From contig CALAMO010000037.1 in assembly GCA_937925855.1 (NCBI GenBank), positions 1 to 64,000 on the forward strand: a DNA stretch of 64,000 bases. Reading direction: 5' to 3'. Made by a program: the position numbers and the translations under genes. The notes under the pieces are model-generated. The model was not told the DNA's origin. It did not search any database and saw only the letters and a program-made list of their open reading frames with translations. This stretch comes from an uncultured Thiotrichaceae bacterium. Lineage in GTDB: Bacteria > Pseudomonadota > Gammaproteobacteria > Thiotrichales > Thiotrichaceae. Of the stretch, positions 9,254 through 64,000 are shown piece after piece (the first letter of the stretch is position 1; every line of letters starts with the position of its first letter).

Positions 9254-10276
9254 TCAGCTTTCTATCAAATCCGCCAGTTCGACATTTTTATAAAACGCAG
9301 CGCGCACTTTAGGATGAGAACGCATCCTGATTTTCAGTGTATTCGCACCAAAAGTAGCAATCACTGGGTCACCTGGATCGGTATTTTGCCCGCCGGGCGC
9401 TTCGGCGGCTAAGGCTGCTGGTAATTCAATGGGTTCAAACCGCGTCTCAAGCCGGGGGTTGAGAAAATAGGCGATGGAAATACGCTCTTGTCCGGCGGGT
9501 GGGGTGACGACCTGATGTTTGGTGGCGCGTAAATAGCCGCTGGTGGCGGACTGCATCATTTCACCTAGGTTGACCACGTAAGCACCGGGCATGGGCGTCA
9601 CATCAATCAGCTTACCGTCACTCATCACCTGTAGGCCCGGCACCGCATCCTGTAGGATAAAGGTCAACAGGCCAGAGTCGTGGTGTAAGCCTAGTGCCTG
9701 TTTTGTCTCCTCATGCGCAGGCTGTGCCGGATAACGACTGATCTTCACTTTAGCATAATTGTCCGGCTGAATGCGTGTATCAAAATGGTGGGGGTTTTGC
9801 CCCAGCCCTTGCGCCAGCGCCCGCATCAATGCCATACCTACCGGCTGCATGTGGGCCATCCAGTCATTAATGATGTCCGCCATCTGTGGCAGGCTGGCAG
9901 GCCACTGGTTGGGGCCGCGTAAACGTAGCCAGGGTGGATCTTCAGGCTGAAGTGTCGGCGCCGGCTCTTCTGGCCCGATATCAATCTGCTCACGCCAGTC
10001 AGTGCGGCCATTAGTGATTTCGTTTTCCAACATGGTGTAACCACGGAAATGTGGGGATTTTTCGATAGCCAGCTTTTGACGTTCTGCCAGCGGCAGATTA
10101 AAAAATTGTTTGGCTATATCGAGTGCGCCCTTATTTTTGCTGTCTGTGACACCGTGCCCGATTAGGTAAAAGAAACCGGGGCCGTGGCAGGTATCCCTCA
10201 GTTTTTTTACAAACTCTTGGCCTGCTGTACTATTTGGGGCGGTGAGGTAGGTTGAAATATCGAGAACAGGCAGCAT
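9254..10276 (-). CDS. 2-oxoglutarate/Fe(II) oxygenase, isopenicillin N synthase-like (copy 2)
   Basis: A 340-residue oxygenase of the same superfamily as copy 1 but clearly different in sequence. From the chosen start MLPVLDISTY the iron ligands are His198 and Asp200 (GLHHDSG) and His254 (ATKHQ), with Arg265-x-Ser267 (ERISIAYFLN) for 2-oxoglutarate. An ATG 69 bp further upstream is in frame but falls inside the palindrome at 10341-10366, while the chosen ATG has GGAGA 12 bases ahead; the shorter form is preferred. It begins with DIOX_N and ends with IESx-type tail. Substrate unknown. Confidence 0.85.
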   Translation of the reverse strand: MLPVLDISTYLTAPNSTAGQEFVKKLRDTCHGPGFFYLIGHGVTDSKNKGALDIAKQFFNLPLAERQKLAIEKSPHFRGYTMLENEITNGRTDWREQIDIGPEEPAPTLQPEDPPWLRLRGPNQWPASLPQMADIINDWMAHMQPVGMALMRALAQGLGQNPHHFDTRIQPDNYAKVKISRYPAQPAHEETKQALGLHHDSGLLTFILQDAVPGLQVMSDGKLIDVTPMPGAYVVNLGEMMQSATSGYLRATKHQVVTPPAGQERISIAYFLNPRLETRFEPIELPAALAAEAPGGQNTDPGDPVIATFGANTLKIRMRSHPKVRAAFYKNVELADLIES

Positions 10277-36559: not shown

Positions 36560-37663
36560 ATGCATATTGTACGTTGGTTATTTACTCACCCTATTATTTT
36601 TGCCTGGGTCTTGGCGATACTGGCGATTTTACTGAATTACCGTTTTGCGGGTGATCACGGCGCGGAGCAGCAAGTTGAGAGCGCAGCCGCAGTGACTGAG
36701 TCCGTGGCGCAGGTTGAAGAGGCTGCGGACTCAACAGTCGCGGCTGCGGCTGAAAAGGTTGAAGAAACGGCGCAGGCCGTGACGGATGCGGGCGCTACGG
36801 CGGTACAAAAGCTGGTGGATACCGGCAGTGCCGTAGCCGAAGGCGTGCAGGAAACGGCGAGTGCGGCAGCAGACGGTGCAACTGATACTGCGGCTAAAGT
36901 GGTGGCGGCAGCGGGTGCCGTTACGGCTAGCGTCGCGGGCGCTGTTGCTGCTAACGATACTGATGCTGAGACAACGCAGGCTGTCGCAGAAACAGCTGAT
37001 AAAGCAGCCGCTACGGATGCCGATGCCGAGACAACTGAAACAGCAGCAGCTGAAGGCGCAACGCAAGACAATGCTTCTGAAGCAGCCGACGCTGATTCTA
37101 CCGAGGCAACCACAGCCGAAAGTGCAGCGCAGGACAGCGCAGCGAGTGACGCTGAGGCGGAGTCTACTTCAGCTGAGACTGACGCCGCGCCGACTGAAAC
37201 AGCGGCAGCGACCGATGCGGATGCAGAGTCCACCGCTACAGCGACCAGCAGTGCTGATGGTGATGCTCAGCAGGTGGCAGCGGACTCGGCGGCGCCTGAG
37301 ACGGACGCGGCTGCTGAAGAGACGACTACTCAAGCGGCAGACGCTGACGCAGCGGATGAGGCGGAAAGTAGTGATGAGGAATTGCTGCGGGCGGCGCGTG
37401 AAGCGTTCTGGAGTGATGATTTCGTCCGTGCTGAAGCGTTCTATCAGGACTTATTAGCGCGTGATAGTAGCCCGGCATACAAAGGCGAACTGGCCAACGT
37501 TTTCTGGAAACAGGGTAAAAGCGTAGAAGCCATTAATTTATACGCTGAAATTGCACCTTGGCTGCGTGAACAGAATAGAATGGTCGAACTGCGCAATATG
37601 AAGGCTTATGCTGATATTGTTGATCCCTCTCTGGGTGAGGCGTTGGCCCCCTGGCTGGAATAA
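36560..37663 (+). CDS. Membrane-anchored Ala/Glu/Thr-rich protein with C-terminal TPR-like helices
   Basis: A 367-residue protein. Residues 1-31 are one membrane helix (FTHPIIFAWVLAILAILL). Residues 35-270 are an acidic low-complexity region rich in Ala, Glu, Thr, Asp and Ser with repeats such as ATDADAETT and AESAAQDS. Residues 275-367 form a helical end with SDDFVRAEAFYQDLLARD and FWKQGKSVEAINLYAEIAP, resembling a pair of tetratricopeptide helices. A spacer in the cell envelope holding a protein-contact module is a reasonable guess. No family recognised. A strong terminator follows. Confidence 0.75.
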   Translation: MHIVRWLFTHPIIFAWVLAILAILLNYRFAGDHGAEQQVESAAAVTESVAQVEEAADSTVAAAAEKVEETAQAVTDAGATAVQKLVDTGSAVAEGVQETASAAADGATDTAAKVVAAAGAVTASVAGAVAANDTDAETTQAVAETADKAAATDADAETTETAAAEGATQDNASEAADADSTEATTAESAAQDSAASDAEAESTSAETDAAPTETAAATDADAESTATATSSADGDAQQVAADSAAPETDAAAEETTTQAADADAADEAESSDEELLRAAREAFWSDDFVRAEAFYQDLLARDSSPAYKGELANVFWKQGKSVEAINLYAEIAPWLREQNRMVELRNMKAYADIVDPSLGEALAPWLE

Positions 37664-37714
37664 GCAACACTATTCACGCGCTAAGGCGCTTATAAGGCAT
37701 GCAACATCCTAATG

Positions 37715-37743
37715 AAACGGGCAGGTACTTTACCTGCCCGTTT
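37715..37743 (+). terminator. Strong intrinsic hairpin after the Ala-rich protein gene
   Basis: AAACGGGCAGGTA pairs perfectly with TACCTGCCCGTTT around a CTT loop (13-bp stem). It falls between 37663 and the dynamin-like gene at 37771. Confidence 0.8.
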
Positions 37744-37770
37744 GCATTTAGGGTATGAAAGGATCTAAAG

Positions 37771-39237
37771 ATGACACCCGCAAAAAGGATAGAGCAGCGG
37801 CTCAAGCGATTACAGGCCCACCTAAAACAGGAAAACCCTGTGCTGGTGGAGGTGGTGGCGCGTTACCGTGACTTGGATAAGGTAGCGCAGAAAATGGGCT
37901 TAATGCAGGCTGGTGAATCCTATGCTACCCAAATCTCCTGGTGGCCGATGATCTCGGTATTGGGGACGTTTTCAGCAGGTAAATCCAGTTTTATCAATAC
38001 CTTCCTCGATCTGGAGTTACAGCACACCGGCAATCAGGCCGTCGATGATAAATTCACGGTGCTTACCTTTAGCCCAGATGGCACTGCGCATACGCTGCCG
38101 GGATTGGCGCTAGACGGCGACCCGCGCTTTCCGTTTTACCAGATCAGTGAAGAAATCGAGCGGGTTAGTGCGGGTGAAGGCGCGAAAATTGACAGCTATC
38201 TCCAGATGAAAGTCGCGCCGAGCGAAAAGCTGCGCGGTCGGATTTTGATTGATTCGCCCGGTTTTGATGCGGATGAGCAGCGTAAATCCACGCTTAAGAT
38301 CACCGATCACATTATTGAACTGTCTGACTTGGTGCTGGTGTTTTTCGATGCGCGTCATCCAGAGCCGGGCGCGATGCAGGATACGCTGGAGCATCTGGTG
38401 CGGGGTGCGCAGCGGCGCAATGACAGCAGCAAATTTCTGTTTATCCTTAATCAGATCGATAGTTCGGCGCGGGAAGATAATCTAGAAGATATTGTGGCTT
38501 CGTGGCAGAAAGCACTGGTGCAGAGCGGTATGACTACTGGCAGCTGCTATAACCTGTTTAACGCTAAGCTGGCGGTCCCGGTCGAGAATGAAGCGGTGTG
38601 GGCGCGCTATGTGGCGAAGTGTACGGCGGACTATCAGGCCCTCACTGCGCGTATGGCGGGGGTGAATACGGAGCGCGCTTACCGGGTGATTGGCGCGCTG
38701 GAAGCGCTGACAAATGAGATTGAGCAGCAGGCTGTGCCTGCTTTGCAGGCCGCACTGCGGCGCTGGCGGCGGGATGTGCTGATTTGGGATGGCATCCTGT
38801 TGAGCGCGCTGGTTGTGGCGGCGGGTGTGCTCAGCGTGTCACTCGGCTGGTGGGCGGGTTTGAGCTTTAATCCGCCGTGGTCAGGGTTAATCGCTGCTGA
38901 GGCAATGCCGACCTTCTTGGCGTCTGGGCTGGCATTGCTGCCGGGTTTATTGTGCCTGCTGGTGTTCCTGGTGCTGCATTATTGGGTGCGGGGATGGGTG
39001 CGCCGCTATGTGGCGAGTAGCCTGAGTGCAATTGAAACAAGCGGTAATATCCGGGCTGCCTTTTACCGTAGCACGGGTTTGCTGCGCAGTATTTTTCAGC
39101 GCGCGCCCAAAGGCTGGGGGCGCACGGCGCGTAAGCGGCTGGCGGTATTGCGCGATGCGACCGATAAATTTGTGCAGCAGCTGAATGATCGCTTTACAAA
39201 CCCATCTGGGAGGGATAAAACTTCTGCATCGGACTAA
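37771..39237 (+). CDS. Dynamin-family GTPase with two membrane helices
   Basis: A 488-residue GTPase of the dynamin superfamily. G1 is GTFSAGKSSFIN (residues 65-76), the switch-I Thr is in DDKFTVLTF, G3 is DSPGF (161-165) and G4 is NQID (227-230). After a helical stretch come two membrane helices (about 338-365 and 378-405), then a basic cytoplasmic tail. Bacterial relatives remodel or protect membranes. It stands upstream of apbE by 20 bp with AAAGGA before its start, so co-transcription is likely. The narrower role is unknown; dynamin pairs are common in bacteria but only one is seen here. Confidence 0.85.
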   Translation: MTPAKRIEQRLKRLQAHLKQENPVLVEVVARYRDLDKVAQKMGLMQAGESYATQISWWPMISVLGTFSAGKSSFINTFLDLELQHTGNQAVDDKFTVLTFSPDGTAHTLPGLALDGDPRFPFYQISEEIERVSAGEGAKIDSYLQMKVAPSEKLRGRILIDSPGFDADEQRKSTLKITDHIIELSDLVLVFFDARHPEPGAMQDTLEHLVRGAQRRNDSSKFLFILNQIDSSAREDNLEDIVASWQKALVQSGMTTGSCYNLFNAKLAVPVENEAVWARYVAKCTADYQALTARMAGVNTERAYRVIGALEALTNEIEQQAVPALQAALRRWRRDVLIWDGILLSALVVAAGVLSVSLGWWAGLSFNPPWSGLIAAEAMPTFLASGLALLPGLLCLLVFLVLHYWVRGWVRRYVASSLSAIETSGNIRAAFYRSTGLLRSIFQRAPKGWGRTARKRLAVLRDATDKFVQQLNDRFTNPSGRDKTSASD

Positions 39238-49892: not shown

Positions 49893-51785
49893 TTAGCCAA
49901 ACCAGCGCCGGAGCATAGCACGCAGCCATTCCAGTAGATTGCGGCGTGTTGGTTGCGGTGCGGGTGGTGTTGGCGGCGGAGGTGGTGGTGTTGATTCACC
50001 GCCACTGCTGCCGCTGCTTATGTTTTCACCGCTGCCACCGCCTGTTGTGCCGCTATTGCTGCCACTGTTTGTACTGCTGCCAGCAGCACTGCCACCTGTT
50101 GGTGTGGCGCCTGCTTCACCACTGCCTGTGGTGGTGCCTGGACCGCTGGAACTGTCGCCACCGCTTGAGGTGGTCGTGCTAGCTGAGCCATTTGAACCGC
50201 TACTGCCGCCGTTGGTGGTGCCTGCTCCGCTGCCGTCATCGCCGTCGCTATTTTCGCCTGCCGGGCTGTCTGGATTTGAGTTTGCAGTGTTATTGGTATC
50301 ACCGCTTTCCCCACGATTATCCTCCGCATTAGCGAATGCAATCATTTGTTCTACGATTGCGGCTAATGGCGAACCCTGTTCGCGTGAAGCCTGTGCGGCG
50401 ATCGCGCGCCAGCTGCCGGGTACCGGACGCTGCGGGTCAGTCCAGCTGCCGCTAATGTTGCTGTCGCGGCGCGTCAGGGCTTTGGCCCCCGGTGGCGGTG
50501 TCCACAGGAAGTCGGGGTGCTTATTGCGGTACCATTCACCCCCGATAATATCGCCCTCGGCGTCGAGCTCAAGGTCATATTCATAGGTCACCGACTTGAC
50601 GCTGTCCATGTCGGGGCGGTCTTCCTCAAGCTGCCGGGGGAAGGTTTCTACAATGTATTTGACGTCCATTGAGACGCCGACCACGCGCGTGGTGCGGTTG
50701 CTGCGCCAGCGCTTGAATTTATCGTTGCTGTAGTCGCCAATAGCGATGGTAGCATCCGCTAGGTTATTACTGGCGCGGCGGGTCTGCGGATTGAAGTAGG
50801 TATAGCTGTAGGCATAAACCGGCTGATTCCAGACCTCATAGTCAAAGGTAACGTCCAGAATAAAGCTGCGTTTCGTCACGCCAATCTGATTGACCACGCA
50901 CAGGTGCCAAGTACCTGGATTAGTGTCAAAGCAGCGCTCAGAAATTACCCGTCCGGTTTCCTCATCCAGCGCAGGGTCTTTGTCATTACAGCGCCCGCCA
51001 ATAAACCGAGTGCGCGCCGAGGCATTGGCCCATAGCAGCGAGGCATAGGCTTTAATATCGGCGGGATAGAATTTAATCGGGATATTGTCCGGGGTATGCA
51101 GCGTAATTGGGCGGGTCGGACGATCCAGCATATAAGCGGCCGGTGCCCAGCCGTGGCAAATACCCATCCAGATTTCGACTTTACCGCTGGCATCATAATA
51201 ACGGCGGCCTTCTGACCACATGTGCTGGGTCATGCTGCCCGTATCATCGCCCACGAGCGCGTCGTATTTTTCGGCGGGTGACAGGCGGTTAATGCGGTAA
51301 GCGCTGCGGCTGTCTAAAATCGTCGTCGCCGGATTCGCGACAATATAATCCGCATTTTCCTTCCAGTCCTCTGATTCAGGGAAAGCGTCATCGGCATAAC
51401 GTGCGCCTAGAACACCTTTATAAATCGCCCAGTAGTCATCCGACCACGGTGTTTCTGCCAGCTGGGCGGCTTTAAGTCCGGCGCTATCCATGTCAGATAG
51501 GCGGGTATAGCGTAAATCGTCGACCAGATTGGCCGCATCGTCATTGCGCGCCGAGGCGGCCCGGGTGCTGACGCGCGGCGCATCGGCTAAGGCGACCTGA
51601 CGGACCGTATCCCGCGCTTCGATAAAATCGCCGCTGGCGATGTCATCGTCCGAAAACAGCGTTTGACTGATGGCCTGATGGCCCGCAACCGCTTGTTTAA
51701 CGGGCTGTTCATTCATAAAGTCTGGGGTGTTCTGTGCAAACGCCTCCAGCCGCTGGTTCAGCTGACTTTCCTGTTCGGTCGGCAT
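49893..51785 (-). CDS. Transglutaminase-elicitor-like protein (GP42/Pep-13 family homologue)
   Basis: A 630-residue protein. Residues about 115-435 match the oomycete transglutaminase elicitor family: WSDDYWAIYKGVLGARYAD, EIWMGICHGWAPAAYML with the catalytic-type Cys210, then TWHLCVVNQIG with His294, ILDVTFDYEVWNQPVY with Asp311, and GGEWYRNKHPDFLWTPPP. Those Cys, His and Asp are in the order expected for a transglutaminase triad. Residues about 485-600 are Ser/Gly/Thr low complexity, then PPPPPPTPPAP and an amphipathic basic tail LLEWLRAMLRRWFG. No signal peptide is visible at MPTEQESQLNQRL. It would cross-link glutamine to amines; protein targets are unknown. The family call is from motif recall and is not yet aligned. 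Confidence 0.75.
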   Translation of the reverse strand: MPTEQESQLNQRLEAFAQNTPDFMNEQPVKQAVAGHQAISQTLFSDDDIASGDFIEARDTVRQVALADAPRVSTRAASARNDDAANLVDDLRYTRLSDMDSAGLKAAQLAETPWSDDYWAIYKGVLGARYADDAFPESEDWKENADYIVANPATTILDSRSAYRINRLSPAEKYDALVGDDTGSMTQHMWSEGRRYYDASGKVEIWMGICHGWAPAAYMLDRPTRPITLHTPDNIPIKFYPADIKAYASLLWANASARTRFIGGRCNDKDPALDEETGRVISERCFDTNPGTWHLCVVNQIGVTKRSFILDVTFDYEVWNQPVYAYSYTYFNPQTRRASNNLADATIAIGDYSNDKFKRWRSNRTTRVVGVSMDVKYIVETFPRQLEEDRPDMDSVKSVTYEYDLELDAEGDIIGGEWYRNKHPDFLWTPPPGAKALTRRDSNISGSWTDPQRPVPGSWRAIAAQASREQGSPLAAIVEQMIAFANAEDNRGESGDTNNTANSNPDSPAGENSDGDDGSGAGTTNGGSSGSNGSASTTTSSGGDSSSGPGTTTGSGEAGATPTGGSAAGSSTNSGSNSGTTGGGSGENISSGSSGGESTPPPPPPTPPAPQPTRRNLLEWLRAMLRRWFG

Positions 51786-51904
51786 GCGAGACCTCCTTGT
51801 GGTGTTGTTTGGGGTAGGGTGATGTGTTTATTATAGGCGTTTGGTAAAAAAATTGTTGCAGCCCTTAATGTGGTTTATTTCCCATTTGTTTAAAAGATTA
51901 TCAG

Positions 51905-61586: not shown

Positions 61587-62723
61587 TTAACTGTGCACTA
61601 AATTGAAGGCGCCAAATTCACCCCACGGCGAAGGTCGCCGTAACCACTGTGTCGCAATCGAATGGTACAGTTTACGGAAGTCACTGGTATAACTGAGGTC
61701 GTTGGCTTTTTGGGCGGAGAGCGTTGGCGCACTGCCATAAATTCCGCCTTGCACGCGGCCACCCAGTAACAGATGTGCGGCTGCGGCGCCATGGTCGGTG
61801 CCACCGCTTTTATTTTCTGCCGCTCGCCGCCCGAACTCAGAGTAGGTCATAATCAGCGTATTTTGCCACTGCCCGCTTTGCTGCATCGCTTGGCTAAAGG
61901 CGGCAAGTCCAGTCGCCAGCTGGTTGAGCAGTGCATTTTGGCGTCTCAGCTGGTTCTTATGAGTATCAAAGCCGCTGAGTTCAATCTTATAGATACCTGC
62001 GCCTAAACCGTTGTTAATCAGGTGGGCAGCCTGCGCCAGTCGTTTGCCGAATTTATGCTGTGGGAACGGGGTATTCGTCGTGCGGGTTTTCTGGAGGGTG
62101 TCGATCACCTGCTGTGAGTTTTGGTGCACATTGTTTTGTACGTCTAAAAGGTGAGCCAGGGTAGGATTGGTGGTTTTGGCCCGCATTGCGCGCAGTTGTT
62201 GAGTCAGGCGAATAAAGTTCCGGGCGTCGTCCATGATAATGGTATCGAAGGCGCTTTCGCTGAGTGGGCCGTGATCGCTACCAATCACGAGACCGTTGAG
62301 CGTGCGAGCTGCTTCTGGGTAGAGCTTGGCAATCCAGCCCTGCGTGTCGTTTTGCGCGGCATCACTTCCAGACTCCCAGATCTCAATCGAGCGGAAATGC
62401 GAACGATTAGGGTTCGCATAGCCCAGCCCTTGAATCCAAGCCATGTCACCGCTGTCCCAATGCGGTTTTAGCGGCTGTAAGGCCGGGTGCATCGCCAAGC
62501 CATCCTTTAGCTTTAGGGCAGTGTTCGCAGGAAGAGCGAGTGTGGGGCGCAGCTGGTAATAGGCACGGTTTTCCACCGGGATCAGTGTGTTCAGGCCGTC
62601 GTTGCCGCCTTTCAATTCAATCATGATCAGTAACGGCGGCGTGCCCTGGCTAGCAAATAGGGAGGGTGCCAGGCCCAGCGTTGGCAGGAGTGTTGACAGC
62701 TGTAAAAAATCTCTGCGATTCAT
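61587..62723 (-). CDS. DUF1501 domain protein with Tat signal
   Basis: A 378-residue exported protein. The N-terminal MNRRDFLQLSTLLPTLGLAP has a twin-arginine motif and hydrophobic core, so export is probably through Tat. The body has LIMIELKGGNDGLNTLIPV, MHPALQPLKPHWDSGDMAWI, SHFRSIEIWE, LSGFDTHKNQ and YSEFGRRAAENKSGGTDHG, all of the DUF1501 family, which is related to alkaline-phosphatase/sulfatase folds. Function is unestablished. It is 13 bp downstream of the DUF1800 gene on the same strand, the usual pairing. Confidence 0.9.
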   Translation of the reverse strand: MNRRDFLQLSTLLPTLGLAPSLFASQGTPPLLIMIELKGGNDGLNTLIPVENRAYYQLRPTLALPANTALKLKDGLAMHPALQPLKPHWDSGDMAWIQGLGYANPNRSHFRSIEIWESGSDAAQNDTQGWIAKLYPEAARTLNGLVIGSDHGPLSESAFDTIIMDDARNFIRLTQQLRAMRAKTTNPTLAHLLDVQNNVHQNSQQVIDTLQKTRTTNTPFPQHKFGKRLAQAAHLINNGLGAGIYKIELSGFDTHKNQLRRQNALLNQLATGLAAFSQAMQQSGQWQNTLIMTYSEFGRRAAENKSGGTDHGAAAAHLLLGGRVQGGIYGSAPTLSAQKANDLSYTSDFRKLYHSIATQWLRRPSPWGEFGAFNLVHS

Positions 62724-62736
62724 GGTGATGGCTCCC

Positions 62737-64000
62737 TTATTTCAGTTGGTAAGTGGGGTCAAGCAAGAGTGCCTGTAAATAGAGGTGTGGGTCTTTGTTG
62801 GCCGTTTCGGTCGTTGCCCCCTGGGGTAACAACCATTGTTCCCAGTAGTTGCTGGCTAGCGTAGGCAGTTTATGAATACGCAGGTCATTTTGCATGCGCT
62901 TACTGGACATCATGCCCGCATCATCATGGTTTTTATCCATGCCACGGCTGATGTTTCTCAGAAATTGCTGGCGGAAAGGGAGGGTCGTGTCATTAATCCA
63001 GCTCCTACCGCCGGGCCAGCCCTTAACGTTAGGAGGCAGGTAAATATTTTGCCCCATCCGCCTGAGCTGGAGATTCAGCGCGCTAAGGGGTAGTTTATCT
63101 TTAGCCAGCCCCATGGCGCGCATTGAGCCTATCACCAGGTCGAGGGGCGATTTTACCAAGGTAGCCCGTGTCGCTGGATGCCAGAACACCTCGCTGGTAA
63201 GAATGGCCTGCAGCAGCGTTGAAATATCATAGCCTGAGGTGCGGAAAGCGTTGGCCCATTGTTGGATGACTGCTTTATCGGGTGGGGTGAGGCTGATAAA
63301 AACGGGCCACATCTTTTCCGCAATCCATTCGGCAGTTCGCGGGTGTTGCAGCAGTAGTTCAATAATATCATCACCGTTAAAATTACCGCTGCTGCCGAAG
63401 ACGGTTTTGGTACCGGTATCGTGGCTCTTTTTATGTAGGAAAACTTTGCCGGTTTTACCGTGGAGACGCCAGCCGGTGAAGGCACGCGCGATTTCCTTGA
63501 TGTCCTGTTCGCTGTAATGGCCTTCGCCTAGAGTAAATAATTCCAGCAGCTCACGCGCAAAGTTTTCGTTCGGTTTTTCGCGCACGTTTTTGATACCGTC
63601 CAGATAAACCAGCATCAGTGGGTCATAAGGAATAGCGCGCAGTAAATCAGCAAAATTACCCAAGGCGTGTTGTCGAATGAGCTGAGTCTGGCCCATCAGT
63701 AATTCTGCGCTGCGCATTGAGCTGCGCAGCGAACTGGTAAAGTGATTATGCCAGAACCAGGTCATTTTCTCTTGCAGGGCATTTGGGTTTTGCAGGGCCT
63801 GATCGATGGCCCATAGTTTGATTTGCTTTAGTTCTTTGCGGACCTGTTGCTTGGCCGCCATTTTGGCGTCTGCGCTGGTTTTACGCATGGCGCGCAGGGT
63901 TTGAAAGTCGTGCAATTTAGGCGTTGGTAGACGGAAGTTACGCGGTGCGGCTAACAGTTTCTTTATTGCCTGTTGGCGATCCTGTTGATTCAATTGTTGG
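62737..64000 (-). CDS. DUF1800 domain protein (N-terminus beyond window)
   Basis: At least 418 residues of a DUF1800 protein, open at the window edge; no start codon with support is visible, and only a TTG lies near the end, so the true start is outside. Family blocks include WFWHNHFTSSLRSS, LRAIPYDPLMLVYLDGIKNV, NENFARELLELFTLGEGHYS, DIKEIARAFTGWRL and GWPGGRSWIN. The partner DUF1501 follows 13 bp later. Such pairs occur in many bacteria with unknown role; one idea is a secreted lipoprotein or polysaccharide-related function. Confidence 0.9.
   Translation of the reverse strand, partial: QQLNQQDRQQAIKKLLAAPRNFRLPTPKLHDFQTLRAMRKTSADAKMAAKQQVRKELKQIKLWAIDQALQNPNALQEKMTWFWHNHFTSSLRSSMRSAELLMGQTQLIRQHALGNFADLLRAIPYDPLMLVYLDGIKNVREKPNENFARELLELFTLGEGHYSEQDIKEIARAFTGWRLHGKTGKVFLHKKSHDTGTKTVFGSSGNFNGDDIIELLLQHPRTAEWIAEKMWPVFISLTPPDKAVIQQWANAFRTSGYDISTLLQAILTSEVFWHPATRATLVKSPLDLVIGSMRAMGLAKDKLPLSALNLQLRRMGQNIYLPPNVKGWPGGRSWINDTTLPFRQQFLRNISRGMDKNHDDAGMMSSKRMQNDLRIHKLPTLASNYWEQWLLPQGATTETANKDPHLYLQALLLDPTYQLK

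Follow-up and report, generated by a model that had tools for sequence, protein, structure and literature searches.

A transglutaminase-elicitor family protein without a signal peptide in an uncultured Thiotrichaceae bacterium, and its candidate caspase-like protease partners

Introduction

In Phytophthora and in marine Vibrio, the transglutaminase-elicitor family (TGase_elicitor; PF16683) is reportedly represented by a secreted enzyme (Reiss, 2011). The member described here is encoded in the window, i.e. the whole stretch of 64,000 nucleotides that was analysed (positions 1 to 64,000 of contig CALAMO010000037.1, from an uncultured Thiotrichaceae bacterium). Its closest relative of solved structure is GP42 of Phytophthora sojae (3TW5), with which it shares the fold (by model), the position of the Cys, the equivalents of His294 and Asp311, and the VWNQPV motif. 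GP42, a 42-kDa protein, is described as secreted and cell-wall-associated (PMC9879208, in excerpt), whereas the window protein has no signal peptide and ends in a 123-residue linker and an amphipathic tip. The Vibrio owensii homologue (L061) is 42% identical to a 488-residue query from the window protein over 99% of its length, but has a signal-like start and a lectin-type annotation.

Two further systems are related by logic or layout. In bacterial gasdermin pairs the effector gene stands next to that of a caspase-like protease, and this protease activates the effector (PMC9612521, in excerpt). The Leucothrix-type loci described below likewise have an effector gene beside a caspase-like (CHAT) protease gene; they differ in that the putative effector is a transglutaminase and not a pore former, that the two genes are unlinked in the genome of the window, and that cleavage and a part in defence are, for these loci, predictions. 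FtsA ends in an amphipathic helix that a flexible linker joins to the rest of the protein (PMC3384640, in excerpt), and the tip of the FtsA from the same genome as the window is similar to that of the window protein. The two proteins are unrelated, however, and membrane binding by the window tip is a prediction.

The gene and its predicted fold

The gene and its parts are as follows.

49893..51785, minus strand: whole TGase_elicitor gene, 630 residues plus stop (ORF list and Pfam profile)
51792..51797, minus strand: Shine–Dalgarno sequence AGGAGG, 6 nt 5' of the ATG (read in the sequence)
51471..51785, minus strand: N-terminal region, residues 1–105, conserved in the subfamily, without a signal peptide, low confidence at 65–80 (alignment and model)
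50493..51470, minus strand: TGase_elicitor domain, residues 106–431 (PF16683; model versus 3tw5, Z = 25.5)
50316..50492, minus strand: C-terminal helical region, residues 432–490, its end portion kept in relatives (alignment and model)
49947..50315, minus strand: low-complexity linker, residues 491–613 (sequence; pLDDT < 50 at 494–616)
49896..49946, minus strand: amphipathic cationic tip, residues 614–630, candidate membrane-targeting helix (alignment; model helix 614–629, pLDDT of the block 47–59)

The reading frame, coordinates, strand and motifs given in an earlier note on this DNA were reproduced (VWNQP from residue 318 and GGEWYRN from residue 415), as were the Ser/Gly/Thr-rich stretch and the Pro run of the tail (residues 491–610). 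That note had assigned the protein to the TGase_elicitor family and proposed a Pfam search, in which a missing match would count against the assignment; the search gave a clear match over residues 106–431 (E = 3.7e-43; score 148.2 bits, Pfam cut-off 25 bits), so that this refutation did not occur. Using phmmer against solved structures (E up to 1), the single relative was GP42 (3tw5_A; E = 3.7e-29). An AlphaFold model of residues 1–488 has a mean pLDDT of 83.8 (26 sequences in the alignment) and matches 3tw5_A alone in Foldseek at E up to 0.001 (4.1e-15); VIA gave Z = 25.5 and an r.m.s.d. of 2.6 over 298 residues at 29% identity, with no other chain above Z = 2.7. That family and fold agree by chance is excluded. 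By family and predicted fold, the window gene thus appears to be an intact PF16683 transglutaminase, and this membership is not new.

NCBIfam gave only a 9.2-bit match (E = 0.86) across the low-complexity tail, and with no match in PADLOC at E = 0.01 a known defence family was rejected as the identity of the protein. The nearest relatives lie on Thiothrix and Leucothrix contigs. An origin from a phage or plasmid was likewise rejected: of the phage records searched none matched, and of the plasmid records one did, that of V. owensii.

Catalytic residues and the Pep-13 region

Conservation was counted over 87 sequences, including that of the window.

51156..51158, minus strand: codon of Cys210; the aligned residue in 3tw5 is a Ser (Cys in 87/87)
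50904..50906, minus strand: codon of His294 (His in 87/87)
50853..50855, minus strand: codon of Asp311 (Asp in 85/87, two Glu)
50817..50834, minus strand: VWNQPV, identical letters in 3tw5 (Trp319 and Asn320 in 87/87, Pro322 in 85/87)

We take the Ser of 3tw5 to be the C290S mutation of GP42. Asp287 and Asn289 are also invariant (87/87). In the model of residues 1–488 Cys210 begins a helix (210–219), and His294 lies inside a helix (290–303) both in this model and in the full-length one. The earlier proposal of Cys210, His294 and Asp311 in triad order was correct in its numbering, and the three positions are near-invariant, but a 2023 survey assigns another His: in its account, GP42 lacks the canonical His and uses the one directly after the Cys (PMC10318531). 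The residue in that position, His211, is replaced in four of the 87 sequences (His in 83) while His294 is constant, a family-wide pattern that favours His294, not His211, as the indispensable residue. Cys210-His294-Asp311 is accordingly an unproven candidate triad.

VWNQPV is presumably the start of Pep-13, and it is all that the window protein has in common with the Pep-13 region of GP42. The conservation of WNQP in this region marks it as a feature of the whole family, and as such it is no evidence for a plant-related function.

Distribution of the family

Of 369 genomes sampled from the class, three have PF16683, including that of the window and all in its family. Within that family it occurs in 36 of the 63 genomes. 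The phylum that holds the Bacteriovoracaceae record L016 was sampled with 191 genomes, of which 94 have a match (93 over the cut-off); 14 control genomes gave zero matches. The genome of the window holds a single match, while two Oligoflexia genomes hold 16 and 18, part of the 18 being pieces of one frame. Phytophthora and Vibrio, named earlier as sources of the family, do belong to its range, but by these counts the range is far wider, and the enzyme is common in two further bacterial groups.

Individual members stand out. An Oligoflexia frame of 1,201 residues (L041; G396:C42) reaches 345 bits against PF16683, a score that no other listed member comes near. The V. owensii protein (L061:5944-7779), on a plasmid and with a signal-like start, is annotated as a ricin-type lectin-domain protein, and a Thiothrix fructosivorans copy (L004) lies, by its record title, on plasmid pTfr446.

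Absence of an export signal

That the protein has no visible signal peptide, as was noted earlier, is true. It has no hydrophobic N-terminal stretch, and by this measure does not have a signal peptide like that of GP42; masking of a signal by a wrongly called start was rejected, because the ATG follows AGGAGG at a distance of 6 nt and has two in-frame stops 15–16 codons 5' of it.

A hydropathy test (mark at 1.8) was applied to 69 distinct sequences: 34 from the clade of the window (33 Thiotrichaceae and L010), two from Myxococcota and 33 others (Bdellovibrionota type and Vibrio). From the nearest ATG, the mark was reached by none of the 34, neither of the two and 16 of the 33. When any start was allowed, it was reached by one of the 34 (L010, from a distant TTG), again by neither Myxococcota sequence (L013 gave 1.57) and by 31 of the 33 others, the remaining two giving 1.30 and 1.34 (the count was 28 in one run that left three sequences unevaluated). 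Three clade members, L122, L128 and L129, stand outside this test, and in L128 translation from the first ATG would give a hydrophobic stretch. In the tree, the 37 sequences of the clade (support 0.985) are nested among sequences with signal-like starts, while the node joining the Myxococcota pair to them has a support of only 0.446. Most likely the signal was lost once or twice, the root being uncertain. A lineage of PF16683 transglutaminases apparently without a signal peptide is new to us.

Several observations count against a cytosolic location. The Leucothrix-type genome G423 (Thiotrichaceae) encodes, besides its first transglutaminase, a divergent one whose start is signal-like (L126:7839-9152) and which falls outside the clade in the tree (as L058). 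The Myxococcota pair has no signal peptide, yet its clostripains look exported by eye. Cys266 and Cys285, a possible disulfide, are complete in all 33 others of the 69-sequence alignment and are kept in Thiothrix, which would suit export, so that the Thiothrix form may still be an exported one. Cys285 is missing in L011, L012 and L014 and present in L078 of the same genus; the Myxococcota pair lacks both cysteines.

A variable linker and a conserved tip

The core ends near residue 490 and is followed by the 123-residue linker and a 17-residue tip, RRNLLEWLRAMLRRWFG (residues 614–630). The earlier note saw the Ser/Gly/Thr and Pro composition of the tail correctly, but left the tip, its most informative part, unmentioned. 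Tailed members extend 45–144 residues beyond the core, with linkers that differ between them (rich in S/G/N/T, or PT repeats). Among 23 tailed sequences, a related set in which three are nearly identical, 22 have a cationic tip at the terminus, containing two or more Trp/Phe and carrying a net charge of +1 to +3, for example SWLTRLLRRWFG and FMEWLRAMLRRWFG. The exception, L009 (Candidatus Thiothrix singaporensis; about 9300-9960), has a tipless end with a similar tip in another frame, which suggests a frameshift or an assembly error. The g7 (Leucothrix-type) members and some Thiothrix paralogues end directly after the core, and the clade members L008 and L069 have no tail, which counts against a tethering role for it.

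In the full-length model the pLDDT is below 50 at 494–616, and a helix spans 614–629 at a pLDDT of 47–59. The FtsA of the same genome ends in EGFWDRIRNWFNGNF; its hydrophobic moment is 0.63, and those of the 22 tips are 0.53–0.95. Against shuffles of the same residues, 11 of 23 tips fell below 0.05 and the window tip gave 0.12; the test is a modest one, on related sequences. The argument for the tip is instead that it is kept while the linker changes freely. We would regard it, with low confidence, as a candidate membrane-targeting helix of the FtsA kind, and such a tip pattern in PF16683 transglutaminases is new to us. A sorting tag common to many proteins was rejected for the exact LRRWFG-stop pattern, which occurs once in the genome.

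The tail had been read as more typical of surface or secreted proteins; it need not be, as a kept amphipathic cationic tip on a variable linker is also the arrangement of FtsA. Of the two options left by the earlier note, unusual export and a cytosolic role, the tail pattern favours the latter, because the linker varies while the tip is kept.

Caspase-like protease genes beside the relatives

Neighbours were compared in 26 loci (L002–L027) and the window, with L028 excluded. Directly downstream of the transglutaminase is a clostripain-cluster gene in 11 of the 13 loci from outside Thiotrichaceae (L013, L015–L026), the two without it being L020 and L021. Three of the 11 members, scanned with Pfam, are Peptidase_C11, and all 11 keep the WGHG and DACL motifs. 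The gaps between the two genes are -11 to +39 nt at nine loci, a count that excludes L013 (start over-called) and L015 (transglutaminase frame missed by the gene caller). Clostripains are counted among the caspase-like peptidases (PMC3482391, Zhang, 2012, in excerpt).

In the g7 genomes (Thiotrichaceae) with both genes, a CHAT giant of 2,003–2,117 residues is encoded directly upstream in four of four (L011, L012, L014 and L119), and the giants form one cluster; the one that was scanned (L012) has DUF7379, LCAT, CHAT and TPR-S domains. A divergent Thiothrix paralogue, L122, has a CHAT protein of 1,781 residues directly downstream; coordinates suggest the same transglutaminase-then-CHAT order in G436, G437 and G441, and do not in G429, G431, G433 and one further place in G441. 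CHAT has been termed caspase-like (PMC10907252, in excerpt). It thus appears that two different caspase-like protease families adjoin PF16683 in different lineages: relatives with a signal-like start pair with clostripain, and Thiotrichaceae members without a signal pair with CHAT.

The excerpts of PMC8195603 (Kaur, 2021), PMC3482391 and PMC10907252 describe other transglutaminase-like or CHAT conflict proteins, not named there as PF16683. We found no report of the pairing in the open-licence literature on transglutaminase elicitor, clostripain, CHAT, Bdellovibrio and Thiothrix, and the pairing of PF16683 with clostripain and CHAT proteases, as read from gene order, is new to us.

Two loci differ from these arrangements. 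At L010 (2853-7857), labelled Methylococcales and nesting among Thiothrix, the two genes directly upstream encode a subtilase and a metallo-beta-lactamase-like protein (20.6 against 27 bits in Pfam; LmuA-like in PADLOC), and the whole resembles a defence locus. At L117 (9363-11093) the gene of a tailed transglutaminase and that of a degenerate CHAT-like protein without the NCC motif converge; judged by eye, the CHAT-like protein has its own amphipathic helix and linker at the start.

The genome of the window

In the window the transglutaminase gene is flanked by tadA and an M28 peptidase gene, which counts against protease control. No gene for a caspase-like protease adjoins it, and a protease operon was rejected here, the genome having no Peptidase_C11 (found in two of the 63 family genomes). 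Another contig of the same genome, unlinked to the transglutaminase, encodes a giant of 2,072 residues (L160:7158-13376) that is 56% identical over its full length to those of L012 and L119. DUF7379, LCAT and CHAT score above the Pfam cut-offs and TPR-S below it (21.2 against 27.6 bits), and the protein carries AAHGE and NCCHL motifs, which we take to be the CHAT active site. By sequence it is an orthologue of the CHAT giant whose gene, in the Leucothrix-type genomes, immediately precedes that of the orthologous transglutaminase.

Across the 63 family genomes, 29 have both the transglutaminase and a CHAT match, seven have the transglutaminase alone, four have the CHAT match alone, and the remaining 23 lack both (Fisher 1.9e-7; 13, 7, 4 and 23 without genus g2, 6.4e-4); these statistics ignore phylogeny, the query was the degenerate CHAT-like protein of L117, and three of the 33 CHAT matches are in short frames (G007, 860; G428, 1,048; G430, 1,278 residues). 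Genomes with the transglutaminase and no CHAT match are G002, G003 (96% completeness), G427 and each of the four g8 genomes that have the transglutaminase.

Elsewhere in the window, 36560-39237 holds a protein with no Pfam match at E = 1e-4 beside a dynamin-like GTPase, and 61587-63993 a DUF1800 protein with a neighbouring 378-residue ORF.

Proposed mechanism and alternatives

Our preferred reading, to which we give a probability of roughly 0.38, places the transglutaminase in the cytosol, probably tethered to a membrane and perhaps under the control of a CHAT protease. The enzyme, belonging to a clade without a signal peptide, would stay in the cytosol, where the long disordered linker and the FtsA-like amphipathic helix would tether it to the inner face of the cytoplasmic membrane. 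Its partner would be the 2,072-residue hydrolase–CHAT–TPR giant, which may sense a trigger and cut the enzyme in its N-terminal region or linker, so activating or releasing it. The enzyme might then cross-link, aminate or deamidate proteins near the membrane, with arrest or death of the infected or damaged filament cell as the outcome. We infer the location, tethering, cleavage, substrates and physiological role; the analysis itself shows the family, the predicted fold, the conserved residues, the missing signal peptide, the kept tip on a variable linker, the protease neighbours of relatives and the orthologous giant. GP42 itself presumably undergoes precursor processing. The GP42 crystal is matched by the model from its residue 166 on, so that a removed N-terminal part is conceivable in GP42 too.

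It is also conceivable, if on the doubtful side, that the enzyme is a stand-alone cytosolic modifier under no protease control, which would aminate, deamidate or locally cross-link proteins close to the membrane, the protease neighbours of its relatives having other uses. The tailed members examined have no CHAT or clostripain neighbour other than the degenerate protein of L117, and the gene does occur in genomes without a CHAT match; against this, two caspase-like protease families adjoin the family and the genome of the window keeps the orthologous giant. Unlikely, in our view, is unconventional export without a Sec signal (through a C-terminal signal, vesicles or lysis) followed by cross-linking of sheath or holdfast proteins. 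Outside the clade signal-like starts prevail among the relatives, long low-complexity linkers of this kind are common in exported proteins, and the cysteine pair kept in Thiothrix points the same way. So do the cell-wall association and Ca2+-dependence of GP42, the latter counting against a cytosolic enzyme (PMC9879208, in excerpt). Export fits less well with the single LRRWFG-stop in the genome, which leaves no common sorting tag of that sequence, with the loss of Cys285 in three of four g7 members and of both cysteines in both Myxococcota, and with the pairing of the g7 members with a CHAT giant whose start, by eye, lacks a signal sequence; among the neighbours listed, few of them Pfam-scanned, no exporter was recognised.

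A further alternative is an effector that enters foreign cells, on contact or in predation, and whose C-terminal helix would act on the membrane of the target. It would recall the expansion of the family in genomes of the Bdellovibrionota type, one of which has as many as 18 matches, part of them fragments of a single gene. The members there carry signal-like starts, however, and the Pfam scan, which covered few neighbours, revealed no delivery gene; we consider this very improbable.

To extend the protease-switched reading to the family is more speculative, and we hold it to be rather doubtful. PF16683 proteins would be zymogen-like effectors of caspase-like proteases, paired with clostripain outside the cell (Bdellovibrionota type) and with CHAT hydrolase–protease sensors inside it (Thiotrichaceae, the lineage without a signal peptide), and the tethered form in filaments would be a cross-linker for death or immunity. 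If true, this would be an analogue of the logic of animal caspase and transglutaminase and of thrombin and factor XIII. The spread of the family, the lineage without an export signal, the candidate tether and the recurrent pairing with two kinds of caspase-like protease make it testable whether bacteria deploy transglutaminases as protease-activated effectors, and they give GP42 a wider bacterial setting.
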